DNA from: Paenibacillus sp. JNUCC-31
Lineage (GTDB): Bacteria; Bacillota; Bacilli; Paenibacillales; Paenibacillaceae
Length of the DNA stretch: 64,000 bases
Assembly (NCBI RefSeq): GCF_014844075.1
Contig: NZ_CP062165.1
Location: forward strand, 4,712,001 to 4,776,000
Reading direction: 5' to 3'
Part shown: piece by piece, positions 12,647 to 17,732 of the stretch
Layout: every line of letters begins with the position of its first letter
How positions within the stretch are numbered: position 1 is the stretch's first letter
Notes under the pieces: generated by a model
What the model saw: the letters and a program-made list of their open reading frames with translations, nothing else
What the model was told of the DNA's origin: nothing
Database searches by the model: none
Program-made: the position numbers and the translations under genes

Positions 12647-12676
12647 GTTATTAATTGTAAAATGAGGAGGAAGGGT

Positions 12677-13468
12677 ATGTCGAGGTATTATGATGGATAC
12701 GGATTAGACTCGACTGTGACACTTCTCAGAATAGCTTATGGTCTTGACAACTGGAGAGAGGTCGTTAAGTTAGGTGAAACACTTTATGAAGAATCACTTC
12801 GTATATATAATTTACAAATGTTGACTAAGGAACAGGACATCGTTGAAATACATACACAGCGGGCAATAGTATATTACATTGGATACAGTCGTTTGATGCA
12901 AGGAATAGCGTATCAAAAACTACTAGAGTTTGATAAAGCAAGGGAATGCATATTGCAATATAGTGATTTTCAGTGGATTAAATTGACTAATCAAGAGACA
13001 CTTAATGAAATTGAATTTTACAGCGATATAGCCACAATCAATTTAATTGTTTTGGATTTACTTGAGGGTAATGCTACAAAGCTTGATGAATACGTGGCTT
13101 ACATTCAAAAGTCAAAAGGTGAGATTATATCTGGATTATTGACTTTGCTTGAAGCCAATCGTTTAAATAATTTACCTATTAAGAAGTTAGAGTATCTATT
13201 TGAAGAACATCGTTCGATTGGTGATACTACCGTAATGTCGGATATTGATATCTCATATTATCTTAAATTTAGTTTTGAGTTGGCGCTGTATTATACCCGA
13301 AGTAATAATGATCCCGATGCAATCGATATCTTACTCAATTGTTTGGCAATATCTCCTAAGATTAATCATAATAAGATAAAATATGTAGCGCTTTTTGAAA
13401 AAACCAGAGATCAGGCTACACATGCACAGATTAGCTTTTACAAATCTATCTTAGAGGGGATGTTATGA
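12677..13468 (+). CDS. TPR-type, RRNPP-like peptide receptor without an HTH domain
   Basis: 263 residues, start at the ATG six bases after AGGAGG (12665). The protein is all-helical, with TPR-like pairs such as YYIGYSRLMQGIAYQKLLEFDKARECILQYSDF (about residues 75-107) and YYLKFSFELALYYTRSNNDPDAIDILLNCLAIS (about 200-232), ending in KYVALFEKTRDQATHAQISFYKSILEG. This matches, from memory, the C-terminal receptor half of AimR/AloR-type quorum-sensing regulators of bacilli and paenibacilli, which usually carry an N-terminal HTH and are about 380-430 residues. The HTH is absent here, which resembles Rap proteins in principle. The stop overlaps the start of a secreted peptide gene. Gene family is inferred, function unproven. 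Confidence 0.65.
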   Translation: MSRYYDGYGLDSTVTLLRIAYGLDNWREVVKLGETLYEESLRIYNLQMLTKEQDIVEIHTQRAIVYYIGYSRLMQGIAYQKLLEFDKARECILQYSDFQWIKLTNQETLNEIEFYSDIATINLIVLDLLEGNATKLDEYVAYIQKSKGEIISGLLTLLEANRLNNLPIKKLEYLFEEHRSIGDTTVMSDIDISYYLKFSFELALYYTRSNNDPDAIDILLNCLAISPKINHNKIKYVALFEKTRDQATHAQISFYKSILEGML

Positions 13469-13578
13469 TGAAGAAAAGAAATGCTCTAAATATGTTGTAT
13501 TCAATTGTTTTGGCAACGTTAGTAGCACTCCCGATTGAGAGTATAATGCAGTTATTTAATCATGGCGTTGGCCATTAA
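13465..13578 (+). CDS. Putative secreted signalling peptide precursor (Phr/AimP/AloP-like)
   Basis: 37 residues. ATG at 13465 overlaps the TGA of the receptor gene (ATGA), with a second ATG at 13468; AGAGGGGA just upstream gives the ribosome site. The peptide begins MMKKRN, has a hydrophobic core LYSIVLATLVALPI, and ends in a short polar tail QLFNHGVGH, i.e. the organisation of exported pro-peptides whose last 5-7 residues become the mature signal. Tight coupling to a TPR receptor is the hallmark of RRNPP pairs. The gene is followed at 13629 by a strong terminator. The mature peptide and its export and cleavage are inferred. Confidence 0.6.
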   Translation: MMKKRNALNMLYSIVLATLVALPIESIMQLFNHGVGH

Positions 13579-13628
13579 TTTTCAAATAATCGACTGAATA
13601 AAGAAAATCTATCCAAAGTATAGACTGT

Positions 13629-13677
13629 ACCCTATAGAGGAGACACTTTAAAAAAGTCTCTCTATGGGGTATTTTTG
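13629..13677 (+). terminator. Rho-independent terminator of the receptor-peptide operon
   Basis: ACCCTATAGAGGAGAC pairs with GTCTCTCTATGGGGT (one bulge, about 15 bp) and is followed by ATTTTTGTTG. Confidence 0.85.
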
Positions 13678-13718
13678 TTGTATGCAACGATTTGAGACAA
13701 GGGGATGAAGATCAACCC

Positions 13719-13826
13719 ATGTGTAAAAAAAAAATTACAGAAAAGATTCACCTGCTCCAAGTAGAGAATGAACTCTTAAAAAAGATTTGCATGGCCGAAC
13801 GGAGGTGGAACCACGAGTTAAACTAG
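13719..13826 (+). pseudogene. Short fragment resembling an IS3-type OrfA coiled-coil end
   Basis: A 35-codon frame encodes MCKKKITEKIHLLQVENELLKKI followed by CMAERRWNHELN and a stop. The LLQVENELLKK leucine-zipper stretch is like the C-terminal helix of IS3-family OrfA proteins. No transposase catalytic frame or terminal inverted repeats remain around it, so this is at most a relic. Identification is tentative. Confidence 0.35.
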
Positions 13827-13931
13827 CGCCTAGTCTTCGATTCAGGTTTGATCCGAACCGTGATTGAGAAATAGGCGAATGGTGAGTTATTTGTGTGGAT
13901 GGGTTTGATATTATTTAAATCTTCTGCTATT

Positions 13932-13947
13932 TGCGTGGATTGAAAAT
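13932..13947 (+). repeat. Orphan 3' end of a CRISPR repeat
   Basis: TGCGTGGATTGAAAAT matches the last 16 bases of the array repeats apart from one extra A. No leader or intact repeat is adjacent. It marks a further lost array segment between the vestigial array and the cas operon. Confidence 0.5.
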
Positions 13948-13981
13948 GCTAAATTGTCATTGTGGAGTTTTGTTGCAAAAG

Positions 13982-14004
13982 GCGCATCCTTTAAGAGGAT
14001 GCGC
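13982..14004. terminator. Perfect 9-bp hairpin, possible terminator
   Basis: GCGCATCCT, loop TTAAG, AGGATGCGC. It lacks a clear T-run on either side. It lies between the IS-like relic and the DUF3800 gene. Confidence 0.4.
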
Positions 14005-14097
14005 AAGTTATTATTAAAATTGTGAAGTACATAAATAGCACAAAATTAAGAGAATATATGGTTTCACTAACCTATAAGAAATCAAGGAGGGGAATAT

Positions 14098-14856
14098 GTG
14101 ATAAATGGATTTTATTTAGACGAGTCTGGAAATAATGGATTTGGAGATATGCAACAACAACCTGTAGTTTGTTATGGTGGGATTTTAGTTCCTAACACCA
14201 GTGTTATAGGTCTTGAACGTGATTTTGAAGCACTGTCCTTTAAAGCAGCTTTGCAAATTAAAGGTGAGATAAAAGGATTGACAAGTAAACAGGTTAATAC
14301 GTTACCGTTCTTTCAAAAGTATGAAATTCACAGTAAGTCTTTCTTTGATGGGGACGATCTGTATTCCAAAATTCCGATCAATGATCGGTTTAAGCTCGCT
14401 GAAGAAATGTTAGAGCTTATTGATCAACATGGAGGTAAAGTGCTTGCCTCTGTAATTAATAAAAATACATATAAACAAAATACAGGTGATACAGGTCATA
14501 CTAACATGCACCAGCTTGGAATGAGTAATTTAATTCAATTAATAGAAAAAGAACTCATTCAAAGGAATGAAACAGGAGTTGTTATTCCTGACAACGGACG
14601 CGACGAAGAGAGAGAACTCTTAATTCAAGTTATCCGACAGGAGACGACCAGCGATCGTATATATAATAGCTCTTTCCTTCAGAATTCACACCATTGCCAG
14701 TTAGTACAGTTAGCCGACATCATTGTATTTCTTACAACTGTCTTTTTTCGATTCCAATATGGATATGCGCCTCGTAAAGCAAATAATAAAGAATTAATAG
14801 AACTATATCAAAAAAGGATAGCTCCTTTGTCCCCAACAGTATGGGAGTACAGGTGA
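14098..14856 (+). CDS. DUF3800 domain protein
   Basis: 252 residues, GTG start five bases after AAGGAGGGG. It begins INGFYLDESGNNGFGD, the YLDESG signature of DUF3800, with later conserved acidic positions VVIPDNGRDEE (about 160-170) and the C-terminal SSFLQNSHHCQLVQLADIIV (about 195-215). This arrangement suggests an RNase H-like fold with a metal site formed by the Asp/Glu residues. The family is uncharacterised but is common beside mobile and defence genes. It lies between the quorum-like operon and the cas operon, and a cluster of hairpins with constant loops starts six bases after its stop codon. Its role, including any link to CRISPR, is unknown. Confidence 0.85.
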   Translation: MINGFYLDESGNNGFGDMQQQPVVCYGGILVPNTSVIGLERDFEALSFKAALQIKGEIKGLTSKQVNTLPFFQKYEIHSKSFFDGDDLYSKIPINDRFKLAEEMLELIDQHGGKVLASVINKNTYKQNTGDTGHTNMHQLGMSNLIQLIEKELIQRNETGVVIPDNGRDEERELLIQVIRQETTSDRIYNSSFLQNSHHCQLVQLADIIVFLTTVFFRFQYGYAPRKANNKELIELYQKRIAPLSPTVWEYR

Positions 14857-14861
14857 TTACA

Positions 14862-15067
14862 ATTAAGGGAGCATACCATTGTACGCTCCCTTAATGTGGT
14901 CGAACCAATGTGCGGCCACATATATAGTATACCCAATATTGGACTTCAATATGCACAATACAAAAAGGGAAACTTCATGTTAGGTCGGACCAATGTACGA
15001 GTTAACATGAAGTTTCCCTTATAGGAAAGTTAATTAGGTCGAACCAATGTGCGAGTCAATTAACTTT
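14862..15067. repeat. Cluster of four hairpins with unrelated stems and a constant loop
   Basis: H1: stem ATTAAGGGAGC/GCTCCCTTAAT (14862-14895), loop with ACCATTGTAC. H2: stem ATGTGGTCG/CGGCCACAT (14894-14921), overlapping the H1 end. H3: perfect 18-bp stem 14965-14982/15003-15020 around a 20-base loop 14983-15002. H4: 10-bp stem AAAGTTAATT/AATTAACTTT (15026-15067). H3 and H4 share the loop GGTCGRACCAATGTRCGAGT; H2 carries the same bases with GGCC at its end; H1 shares only the ACCAATGTxCG core. The stems are perfectly or almost perfectly paired but unlike each other. It lies between the DUF3800 gene and cas3. The rest of the gap to cas3 (15068-15275) shows no clear promoter. Confidence 0.85.
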
Positions 15068-15275
15068 ATCTAACAATATTATACTCTGTAACTGAATCCG
15101 AGTCAATGATATAACAAGTTTAACACTACTTGATAGGGGTAGAAACTAAGGATTTTTTTGGGTAATAAAAAAGGAGTTTGTCGTCTGAAGTCGAAAGGTT
15201 AATATAAGTAATTTTCCCAATTAATGAGTATGGGAAACGGATTTGAATCCCTTTTCTGAAAGGAATCGAGGCTTA

Positions 15276-17732
15276 ATGACCTTTATTGCACATATCCGTC
15301 AAAAGGATGGAAAAATACAAACCGTTCAGGATCACTTAGTAGAGGTTAAGCAAGGGGCGGAGCAGGCTGGAGAGAAGATCGGCGTTAAATATTTGGCAGG
15401 CATTGCTGGTCTTCTGCATGATATGGGCAAAAATACAGATCTTTTTCGAAACTACATTCAGGAAGCTGTCGCAAACCCGGATGCCCCTCCTCGCAAAGGT
15501 TCAGTTGATCATTCGACTGCTGGGGGCAAGCTACTGCACAGCCTTTACCATGGAAGTGGCACAACGCTTGAGTCAAAGTACACCGCGGAGTGGATTGCCA
15601 ATTGTATTATCTCCCATCATCAGGGTCTAAGAGACTACGTATCACCTGATAAAGCCTCACCTTATATGGAGCGAGTCATTTCCAGGGAACTAGATCAATA
15701 TGAGCAGGCAAAAGTAGAATTTCTCAAGCACAATCCCCCAGACCAACTCGACCATATGTTTGAGCAAGCGACCCAAGAGCTTCAACAATACATACAGATC
15801 ATCAATAAAAATAAACTTCCACGAATTGCGGGAGCGCTGCTTATTAAATATATCTTTAGCTGCCTGATTGACGCGGATCGAACCAATACAAGACGATTTG
15901 AAGAAAACGAAACATCGACAGAAGAAATCGATTACAAGTTGTTTTTTCAACAAAGCTATGAATTACTATCTCAACATTTAAGCGAGCTTGAGCACGGCAG
16001 TATAGTAGACACACCCATTAATCAATTGCGACGTGAAATGTCCCGGCAATGCGAACAATTTGCGTATCGTCCATCAGGAGTGTACACCCTTTCCATACCA
16101 ACAGGCGGGGGAAAAACGCTTGCTAGTATGCGCTACGCGCTAAGACATGCCATTGAACATAACAAACAACGGATTATATATATCGTTCCCTACACCACCA
16201 TCATTGAACAAAATGCGGCTGAGATCCGCAGTATTTTGAAAAACGATGACATGATTTTGGAACATCACTCCAACGTGGTGGATGACAAGGATGACGAACG
16301 CCATGAGGGCGACGAAGGGGAAACTCTGGATTTACGCAAAAAGAATCTCAAGCTTGCCCGTGATCATTGGGATCGGCCGATTATTTTTACGACGATGGTT
16401 CAGTTTTTGAACACCTTTTATGCCAAAGGAACCCGAAACGTCCGCAGATTACACCAGCTTTCCAATGCAGTCATTGTATTTGATGAAGTGCAGTCGGTTC
16501 CGGTTCATTGTATCTCCCTCTTTAATGCTGCACTGAATTTCCTGAATGTGATTGGGAGATCCAGCCTGTTGCTCTGTACAGCGACTCAGCCTGCATTGGA
16601 TTTTGTAAAGTACAAGCTGCATTTCTCGGAGCAGCCGGAGATTATTGAGAATTTAGATGAGGTGGGGCGAAGCTTCAAACGAGTTGATTTACAGGACCTT
16701 ACGAGGGATTCACCTTCGGGTTGGGACGCAGAGGAAGTATCTTCCTTTATCCAGGAACAGATGAGGGAAGTGGACAGTGTGCTGGTCATTTTGAACACGA
16801 AAACAGCCGTCCGTAAACTGTTTGAACAGTTGATTGAGGTGGAATGGCTGAGAGAGAGTGGCGTTCAGTTGGTTCATCTGAGCACCAATATGTGTGCAGC
16901 ACATCGCAAAGAGGTTTTATCCGGGGAGTATGGCGTTATTCCGAGATTGGCAAAGGGTGAACGGATCATCTGTGTGAGTACACAGCTTATTGAGGCGGGT
17001 GTGAATATCAGCTTTGATTGTGTAGTTCGTTCCTTGGCTGGTTTGGATTCGATTGCTCAGGCGGCAGGGCGATGTAATCGGCACGGGAAAGATAAGGTTC
17101 GCAATGTGTACATCATTCGCTCATCGGATGAGGTGTTAACGAATCTGCCTGAGATTCAAATTGGCGCCGAGAAGACGGAACGTGTGCTTCAGGAATTCAA
17201 GGATGACCCGAGTTCGCTCGGCGATGACTTGTTATCTTCAAAGGCAATGTCCCGTTATTTCGAATATTATTTTAACGATATTGGAGACAAAATGCATTAC
17301 CCCATTCCTAAGCTTGAACAGAACTTGTTTGATCTGATGGACCGTAATCGTTATTACGTGGATGCCTATAAGAAGAAGCATGATTGTAAGCCGGAGGTTG
17401 TGAATCACTATGCTATAGCTACGGCAGAGAAGTATTTCGAAGCCATTTCCACAAACGCCACGCCCGTAATTGTGCCTTATGGGGAAGAAGGAAAAGAATT
17501 GATTTTGGACTTGAATGGAGAAATTGAACCTGGTGAAATGAGTGAGTTATTACGCAAGGCTCAGCAGTATACGGTGAATATTTACGATCAAGAACTTCGG
17601 GCCTTGGAGAGAAATGGAGATGTATATCCCCTTTTGCATGGGCATGCCCTGGCATTGAGGGAACCAGCATATTCCGATGATTTTGGCGTGGAATCCAAGG
17701 GTGAGGGTGCTTGGGAACCGATGATGATTTGA
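15276..17732 (+). CDS. cas3: Cas3 helicase-nuclease, type I-C
   Basis: 818 residues from ATG 15276 (GAAAGGAA 11 bases upstream; an in-frame TTG at 15243 is less likely). The N-terminal HD nuclease domain shows GLLHDMGK (about residue 45), VDHSTAGG and ISHHQG. The SF2 helicase has Walker A SIPTGGGKT (about 280), DEVQ in VIVFDEVQS (about 405), CTATQPA, and motif VI QAAGRCNRHGK (about 605). Cas3 is recruited by Cascade to unwind and degrade the target strand. HD and helicase are in one chain, as usual for I-C. All catalytic motifs look intact. First gene of the cas operon. Confidence 0.97.
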   Translation: MTFIAHIRQKDGKIQTVQDHLVEVKQGAEQAGEKIGVKYLAGIAGLLHDMGKNTDLFRNYIQEAVANPDAPPRKGSVDHSTAGGKLLHSLYHGSGTTLESKYTAEWIANCIISHHQGLRDYVSPDKASPYMERVISRELDQYEQAKVEFLKHNPPDQLDHMFEQATQELQQYIQIINKNKLPRIAGALLIKYIFSCLIDADRTNTRRFEENETSTEEIDYKLFFQQSYELLSQHLSELEHGSIVDTPINQLRREMSRQCEQFAYRPSGVYTLSIPTGGGKTLASMRYALRHAIEHNKQRIIYIVPYTTIIEQNAAEIRSILKNDDMILEHHSNVVDDKDDERHEGDEGETLDLRKKNLKLARDHWDRPIIFTTMVQFLNTFYAKGTRNVRRLHQLSNAVIVFDEVQSVPVHCISLFNAALNFLNVIGRSSLLLCTATQPALDFVKYKLHFSEQPEIIENLDEVGRSFKRVDLQDLTRDSPSGWDAEEVSSFIQEQMREVDSVLVILNTKTAVRKLFEQLIEVEWLRESGVQLVHLSTNMCAAHRKEVLSGEYGVIPRLAKGERIICVSTQLIEAGVNISFDCVVRSLAGLDSIAQAAGRCNRHGKDKVRNVYIIRSSDEVLTNLPEIQIGAEKTERVLQEFKDDPSSLGDDLLSSKAMSRYFEYYFNDIGDKMHYPIPKLEQNLFDLMDRNRYYVDAYKKKHDCKPEVVNHYAIATAEKYFEAISTNATPVIVPYGEEGKELILDLNGEIEPGEMSELLRKAQQYTVNIYDQELRALERNGDVYPLLHGHALALREPAYSDDFGVESKGEGAWEPMMI

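Follow-up and report, generated by a model that had tools for sequence, protein, structure and literature searches.

Compact structured RNAs beside DUF3800 genes are known as the DUF3800 RNA motifs, which are numbered I to XI, reportedly stem from the 2017 survey of Weinberg et al. and include Rfam families such as RF02969, RF02968, RF02967 and RF03075. According to the passages cited here, a "catalytic rearrangement" is reported for DUF3800 (PMC10910872), and DUF3800 occurs as an accessory in CRISPR loci (PMC10910872; PMC12669027). RCd22 of C. difficile, which belongs to the abiF motif (RF03085), is described in the cited part of its report as an RNA of about 100 nucleotides (nt) with a SigA promoter, two copies of the motif and a terminator, which binds and neutralizes AbiF, encoded next to it (PMC12373285). 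Type III toxin–antitoxin systems (ToxIN, CptIN and TenpIN) appear in the cited excerpts as tandem RNA repeats beside a nuclease (PMC8860590; PMC4627078). Here, we analyze four hairpins, H1 to H4, at positions 14862–15067 of a 64,000-nt stretch of the Paenibacillus sp. JNUCC-31 genome (contig NZ_CP062165.1; the whole stretch is called the window), where they sit between a DUF3800 gene and cas3 of a type I-C CRISPR locus. We hold with moderate confidence that they are two tandem copies of a DUF3800-linked, two-hairpin small RNA gene on the minus strand, the tips of which would be bound by the DUF3800 protein.

A first-pass annotation, made from the letters alone, had described four hairpins with unrelated stems (18 bp in H3, 10 bp in H4), a loop that is the same in H2 and diverged in H1, and the position of the array between the two genes, all of which is borne out. 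The gap between the DUF3800 stop codon (14854–14856) and H1 is 5 bases, and that between H4 and the cas3 ATG at 15276, a start chosen by us, is about 208 bases. The features, in positions of the window, are as follows:

14098–14856, plus strand: DUF3800 gene, 252 aa; the modeled protein is RNase HII-like in fold, with acidic residues D8, E9, D165 and D207
14862–14895, minus strand: hairpin H1, diverged tip; four pairs altered on both sides
14896–14919, minus strand: hairpin H2, tip core same as in H4
14965–15020, minus strand: hairpin H3, perfect 18-bp stem; a single compensated C-G/A-U difference
15026–15067, minus strand: hairpin H4, 10-bp stem and conserved tip; 2 of 42 columns variable among five orthologues
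14855–14919, minus strand: predicted unit B (H2 plus H1), fold z −6.08; genome G031 (locus L014) carries H1 and H2 only
14926–14931, minus strand: candidate −10 box of unit B, TATACT, with a weak −35; in four of five I-C-linked loci
14957–14966, minus strand: terminator-like U tract CCCTTTTTGTATT after H3; T5–T6 in five of five orthologues
14957–15071, minus strand: small RNA predicted as unit A, comprising H4, H3 and the U tract, putative start 7 bases past the −10 box
15078–15106, minus strand: sigma-70-type promoter-like site TTGACT-17-TATAAT, 11 of 12 positions matched
15276–17732, plus strand: cas3 (type I-C), a neighbor outside the module; some cas3 relatives have neither DUF3800 nor hairpins beside them

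The stems pair fully with no sequence in common: H3 has 18 perfect pairs (14965–14982 with 15003–15020) and H4 has 10 (15026–15035 with 15058–15067). The 20 bases first described as a nearly constant loop are indeed constant, but they are not an open single-stranded loop, because they are predicted to fold as a structured tip composed of CG/CG pairs (TCG/CGA in H3 and H4, with a short irregular step underneath), a purine–purine mismatch (A.G in H2 and H4, G.A in H3), AC/GT and a CAAT tetraloop. H2 and H4 have one tip core in common, TCGAACCAATGTGCG. The tip of H1 follows this layout too, its pairs being standard or A.C, and its tetraloop is CATT in the window and CAAT in orthologues. All four hairpins are symmetric around an ACCAWTGT core, and the tip of H2–H4 on the strand of the predicted RNA reads CGYACAUUGGUYCG. 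As minus-strand RNA the 222-base region folds at −80.3 kcal/mol (z −8.35), as plus-strand RNA at −83.8 kcal/mol (shuffle mean −44.07; z −9.09), and as DNA the hairpin region has a z of −11.49; none of 200 shuffles was as good in any of the three cases. The predicted RNAs of unit A (14954–15071) and unit B (14855–14924) reach −41.2 kcal/mol (z −7.49) and −30.9 kcal/mol (z −6.08), respectively.

The hairpins are real and evolutionarily maintained. When 14 hairpins from four loci, both paralogues and orthologues and 12 of them distinct, were aligned about the core, 10 of 14 stem pairs were altered on both sides, 83.9% of cells were paired as against 65.4% in shuffles, and the covariation score was reached by none of 500 shuffles. 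Much of this covariation is that of paralogue versus paralogue, and the comparison of H1 with H1 is the cleaner test: H1 of the distant genome G031 differs from its orthologues by four pairs, all fully compensated, and in H1 alone 4 of 15 pairs are altered on both sides, a count seen in 1 of 500 shuffles with a score seen in none of 500. The free decay of stems around a persisting loop, named in the first-pass annotation as a sign against selection, is not seen in the orthologue alignments of H1 and H3, where 92% of cells are paired. Over five I-C-linked loci, variable columns number 5 of 34 in H1, 1 of 24 in H2, 12 of 56 in H3 and 2 of 42 in H4, compared with 22 of 45 in the H2–H3 spacer (including a 17-base deletion in one locus) and 10 in the 43 bases following H4. 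These results support selection acting on the tip and on pairing as such, as had been proposed. The accompanying suggestion that the array grows by copying new stems is not supported, as the stems are inherited and conserved, H4 included, in the five genomes. The layout resembles instead the duplication of a two-hairpin unit, which fits with the identical tip cores of H4 and H2 and with the single H2–H1 unit of G031. A CRISPR-like array with acquired spacers was also considered and rejected: the stems are conserved between species, and no repeat–spacer pattern was among the repeats found.

With what do the hairpins travel? This DUF3800 subfamily is present in 5 of 75 Paenibacillus genomes, and the genomes of the genus with hairpin-model matches are exactly these five; P. 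pini is a sixth bearer, with both DUF3800 and hairpins. Among the strains that have the locus are P. pini JCM 16418 and Paenibacillus sp. SZ31. The array adjoins DUF3800 in all six bearers (G000, G003, G031, G040, G041 and G293), as DUF3800-associated RNAs do, so that the motif with paired flanks does recur outside the window: five further genomes have it next to DUF3800 or what is left of that gene. In G031, H1 and H2 follow a truncated DUF3800 and H3 and H4 are absent; no cas3 is among the frames listed within 6 kb, and the sole cas3 match of the genome lies on another contig, which argues that the partner is DUF3800, not CRISPR. Relatives of cas3 occur in 27 of the 75 genomes of the genus. 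Three of them (G037, G068 and G033; loci L095–L097) have a cas3 93% identical to that of the window over the 408 residues compared, and there a CRISPR repeat and leader stand where the window has DUF3800 and hairpins. By these loci and the separate locus of G031, the module consists of DUF3800 and the hairpins, which some cas3 genes have beside them and others lack.

A decayed sister locus lies on plasmid pART37 of Paenibacillus sp. 37 (G003), where DUF3800 is a pseudogene with two TAG and the genome gives no PF12686 match, the remnant being visible only with a protein query. The −35 there is TAGACT, the −10 box of unit B is deleted and the tip of H3 is broken; pairing is kept in H1, H2 and H4. 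A partnership would lead one to expect protein and RNA to decay together, as they do here, at one locus only. When plasmids were searched with the DUF3800 protein, the pART37 remnant was the one match; phages gave one match, at 27%, and viral contigs scanned with P0003 gave 12 stretches and no relative. P0003, together with P0004, P0006 and P0007 (39–55% identical), is encoded on metagenome contigs. On the same plasmid, a gene annotated cas6 (L154:5770–6657) adjoins the type I-C locus and the DUF3800 pseudogene.

The sole family match of the DUF3800 protein is PF12686. By global fold similarity its model is RNase HII-like, the nearest solved folds being RNases HII, not transposases; a search of solved structures by sequence gave nothing credible, and PADLOC gave just a weak match to the candidate defense model PDC-M04A (E 4e-6).

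Which strand would carry the RNA? The minus-strand site TTGACT-17-TATAAT (15106–15078) is the best of eight promoter-like sites in 13500–15500, and its −10 box stands 10 bases from the stem of H4. It is kept in three relatives with an intact DUF3800, including L001, L012 and L002 (−10 TATTAT there), a conservation that says little because the orthologues at the I-C locus are close relatives; in the DUF3800-pseudogene locus L013 the −35 is TAGACT. On the minus strand H3 is followed by the U tract, with T5 or T6 in every orthologue. A standard terminator scan did not flag this tract, probably on account of the irregular tip, and called no terminator-like site within 14862–15067. A hairpin of either RNA or DNA bound by a protein had been envisaged at first; the minus-strand promoter-like site and the U tract after H3 favor RNA. 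Before H2, at 5 or 6 bases, stands a TATACT box in the four I-C-linked loci other than L013, where it is deleted; it has no good −35 and falls under the threshold of the promoter scan, and might serve unit B. These sequences suggest two convergent small RNA units, A (H4–H3) and probably B (H2–H1), of which A, by sequence, would hold a promoter-like site, two motif copies and a U tract, a layout perhaps like that of RCd22.

We propose that the RNA would be transcribed from the minus strand, convergently with DUF3800. Unit A would start just outside H4 and end at the U tract past H3, and unit B would consist of H2 plus H1. Every hairpin would offer a similar short irregular tip on a stem that is free in sequence while paired, the stems being mere rigid handles, and DUF3800, the model of which suggests an RNase HII-like nuclease, would most likely recognize the tip. 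The RNA would be the bound partner of DUF3800, either an antitoxin-like inhibitor of a possibly toxic nuclease or a cofactor; it may inhibit or guide the protein or be its substrate.

Wider DUF3800 loci were compared with the window. DUF3800 is found in 52 of 398 Bacillota genomes (E ≤ 1e-6), and 55 loci were assembled: 24 minus L019 (a duplicate of L001), 29 new ones, and L001, L014 and L121. Flank scans, over 220 bases in the case of promoters, used 45 of them, from Paenibacillaceae and other Bacillota, several being close relatives of one another and the window's own (L018) and that of P. pini (L121) being included; the 10 left out were L001 and L140, for both of which a wrong frame had been picked, and eight with a frame below 190 aa. 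The promoter-like site of the window lies beyond 220 bases and outside the count. Promoters with at most one mismatch number six in antisense 3′ flanks (0.2 expected) and none in 5′ flanks on either strand. With at most two mismatches there are 11 antisense and 9 sense in 3′ flanks (2.45 and 2.4 expected), and 6 and 3 in 5′ flanks (2.87 and 2.48 expected). The antisense 3′ flanks of 8 of the 45 loci have YGAA and GUAG enclosed by the two sides of a variable stem, with a stretch between them that is often a hairpin (0.11 expected; none in the other three flank sets). This count is optimistic and partly circular, because some of these loci are where the motif was noticed in the first place and several of the eight are related to one another. 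The loci concerned (L029, L125, L126, L127, L128, L132, L149 and L151) join DUF3800-VIII (L029) with loci lacking an Rfam call, L149 and L151 being outside the Rfam set. We take the internal loop to be reminiscent of the bulged-G (loop E) module.

The Rfam run on 40 loci called DUF3800-VIII twice and DUF3800-VII and -IX once each; the family numbers seen here are I, VII, VIII and IX. Repeated elements stand in the 3′ flanks of L025, L026, L027, L130 and L017, so that a fixed core with free stems is not unique to the present locus. L017 and L025 have two units each, in which the GUAARCCC core is constant and the outer stems differ; a promoter-like site with two mismatches, on the strand of the gene, precedes the first unit of each. 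L021 and L023 have one such unit, and none of these four loci has an Rfam gathering match. Downstream of DUF3800 in L026 and L027, a hairpin of about 48 bases (GACTGGTGTTGTGG...CTCGTGCTGGTC) recurs almost unchanged at a distance of about 100 bases, the two copies differing in their lowest pairs. A GAA...UGU internal loop common to the plus-strand tips of the window and to other DUF3800 RNAs is not claimed: the resemblance is seen in H2 and H4, and H3 has CGGA and needs one extra base.

In the family as a whole the hairpin model matches 13 of 394 genomes. Seven of these (G095, G116, G133, G220, G284, G294 and G343) stand outside the array loci and lack a PF12686 match. Their matches and similar ones include simple palindromes, some perhaps terminators (L046, L048, L049 and L052), and stretches in open frames (L050 and L051); the H1-type core alone is not specific, since matches without DUF3800 are mostly ordinary palindromes or coding sequence. 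Among the seven, an irregular tip occurs in G343 alone, on a phage contig (C4, 141,141 bases), where an orphan hairpin at 86674–86707 (L088:9875–9908) has GTCGAACCAATGTGCGAGT, 19 bases identical to H4, on its own, different 11-pair stem. It lies directly upstream of a gene located close to portal and virion genes. Brevibacillus phage Sundance has a homologue of this gene, annotated as encoding a putative structural protein, and the two proteins are 84.9% identical; a hairpin is absent from the corresponding site of Sundance. A comparison of the hairpin region with phages gave one 21-base match (E 0.7), and the exact core TCGRACCAATGTRCGA is found at 24 loci on viral contigs, several near-identical, with a long outer stem in one (L071, 11 pairs, from an IMG/VR contig equal in length to C4) and a second-best of 4 pairs (L067). 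The coding strand of the G343 phage yields RNA of the same sense as the predicted small RNA, and the G343 genome has no DUF3800 (PF12686) match. The phage hairpin, a single case, is possibly a decoy. It might even be that DUF3800 proteins are widespread RNA-controlled RNase HII-like immune nucleases, held in check by hairpin RNAs of their own that are convergent or adjacent and combine a fixed tip with a free stem, against which a large Paenibacillaceae phage carries a late-made decoy tip; taken as a whole, this picture is speculative and we consider it unlikely.

Several observations weigh against the proposed minus-strand RNA and its partnership with DUF3800. Promoter-like sites are no commoner than chance in 13500–15500 (8 versus 6.7 in shuffles), none was found at the G031 locus, and the U tail of H1 is only weak. 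Pairing gives no verdict on the strand, with 212 Watson–Crick cells, 13 G.U on the plus strand, 12 A.C on the plus strand, which are G.U on the minus strand, and 43 others, and the plus strand folds slightly better. The shuffles of the 14-hairpin alignment are less clear on two measures (pairs, 17 of 500; further types, 169 of 500). The compact structure covaries as in DUF3800-associated RNAs; H3 taken alone is not significant (200 of 500), with one compensated change among five close relatives. DUF3800 is broken or truncated in two of the six bearers, the sense 3′ flanks of the wider loci are also enriched in promoters with at most one mismatch (3 versus 0.13 expected), and YGAA...GUAG is not contained in the tips of the window.

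The better plus-strand fold also bears on the idea that the hairpins are a 3′ untranslated region, co-transcribed with DUF3800 to stabilize or autoregulate its message, which the protein might cut. They do lie on the gene's strand 5 bases past its stop codon, and the RNA motifs at L017 and L025 have promoter-like sites on that strand. The best plus-strand site in 14701–15270, however, is inside DUF3800 and has three mismatches, whereas the minus-strand site matches 11 of 12 positions and the U tract after H3 exists on the minus strand only; we judge this account improbable. Both minus-strand features, the site and the tract, also favor RNA over DNA hairpins that DUF3800, as an RNase H-fold, recombinase-like protein, would bind or cut on extrusion in the manner of the IS200/IS605 transposase TnpA or RAYT, the array being the ends or relics of a mobile unit. 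No defined insertion ends were seen, the nearest solved folds are those of RNases HII, and no dispersed copies exist in the genome: in its 7.55 Mb, a single contig, the hairpin model at E ≤ 0.01 finds three of the four hairpins and no other place, for which reason a REP/RAYT or dispersed palindrome was rejected. ACCAATGTRCG occurs there seven times, three of them inside the array, and in the phylum scan the exact 16-mer was found in 1 of 398 genomes, the window's own. An origin as DNA hairpins is in our view quite unlikely.

Could the four hairpins simply be transcription terminators between DUF3800 and cas3? Their intergenic position and the U tract of H3 on the minus strand would suit such a role, as would L155, from a class search with matches in 4 of 398 genomes (E ≤ 1e-4), an H1-like palindrome in an unrelated place that resembles a terminator by its T run and has the same CAAT loop. 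Intrinsic terminators, however, need a U tract after each stem, and here only H3 has one, on the minus strand; no terminator-like site was called in the array; and a common irregular tip, four copies and covariation are not required of terminators. This explanation seems very unlikely to us, and a minus-strand RNA with its DUF3800 partner remains the reading that we prefer.

As for the surroundings, the type I-C cas operon extends rightwards from cas3, and open frames with repeated motifs, read as CRISPR arrays, flank it on both sides. Upstream of DUF3800, a 268-aa open frame (12662–13468) has no match in Pfam, NCBIfam or PADLOC; it is placed outside the module because its region is also present in L096 and L097, which are without DUF3800. 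Just upstream of DUF3800 (13915–13945) is a degenerate CRISPR-repeat end, GCGTGGATTGAAAAT, and in relatives without DUF3800 a CRISPR repeat precedes the cas3 leader. According to the cited part of one report, a palindromic candidate, CRISPRCas_18, lies about 300 bases upstream of a type I-C cas3 in Proteobacteria and Firmicutes from wastewater and bioreactors (PMC9067536). Compared by description only, the array may overlap this candidate, and an earlier prediction of it is possible.

The locus is thus a concrete, testable pair of a 252-aa nuclease candidate and short hairpins, in which evolution has already separated the part probably recognized, the tip, from the free part, the stem, and for which the decayed locus of pART37 and the orphan phage copy are natural controls. 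The array makes the question of what DUF3800 and its RNAs do directly testable. Like the DUF3800 RNAs, the AbiF RNA motif goes back to the 2017 survey, and AbiF turned out, in the passages cited, to be an RNA-neutralized toxin.

How does the array compare with known systems? The 64-kb window has no gathering match in Rfam 15, and when E values up to 10 are allowed, the region 13400–15500 gives 17 matches, with no DUF3800 family among them; the array is a family without an Rfam 15 match, of a known kind, that of DUF3800-associated RNAs. It resembles these in being a compact structured RNA element beside a DUF3800 gene and differs from the Rfam families in its four hairpins, its two units and its place beside a type I-C CRISPR locus. 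RNase HII and RNase H2, for their part, are a family other than DUF3800. Type III toxin–antitoxin systems carry their repeats, which form pseudoknots, upstream of the toxin, a protein of a different fold. Tandem repeats beside a gene are found here too, as four hairpins with a common tip, but the array is downstream with a minus-strand promoter-like site, not upstream on the same strand, and has irregular hairpins instead of pseudoknots and an RNase HII-like model instead of the toxin fold. AbiF is an Abi_2 protein, while the protein here matches PF12686 only, and RCd22 precedes its partner gene on the same strand, with read-through, while the RNA predicted here is downstream and convergent. 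The possible likeness to RCd22 and AbiF, judged here by sequence, would be that of a small RNA with a promoter, a repeated motif and a terminator beside its partner gene, and by this analogy DUF3800 probably binds the hairpin RNA, as AbiF binds RCd22.
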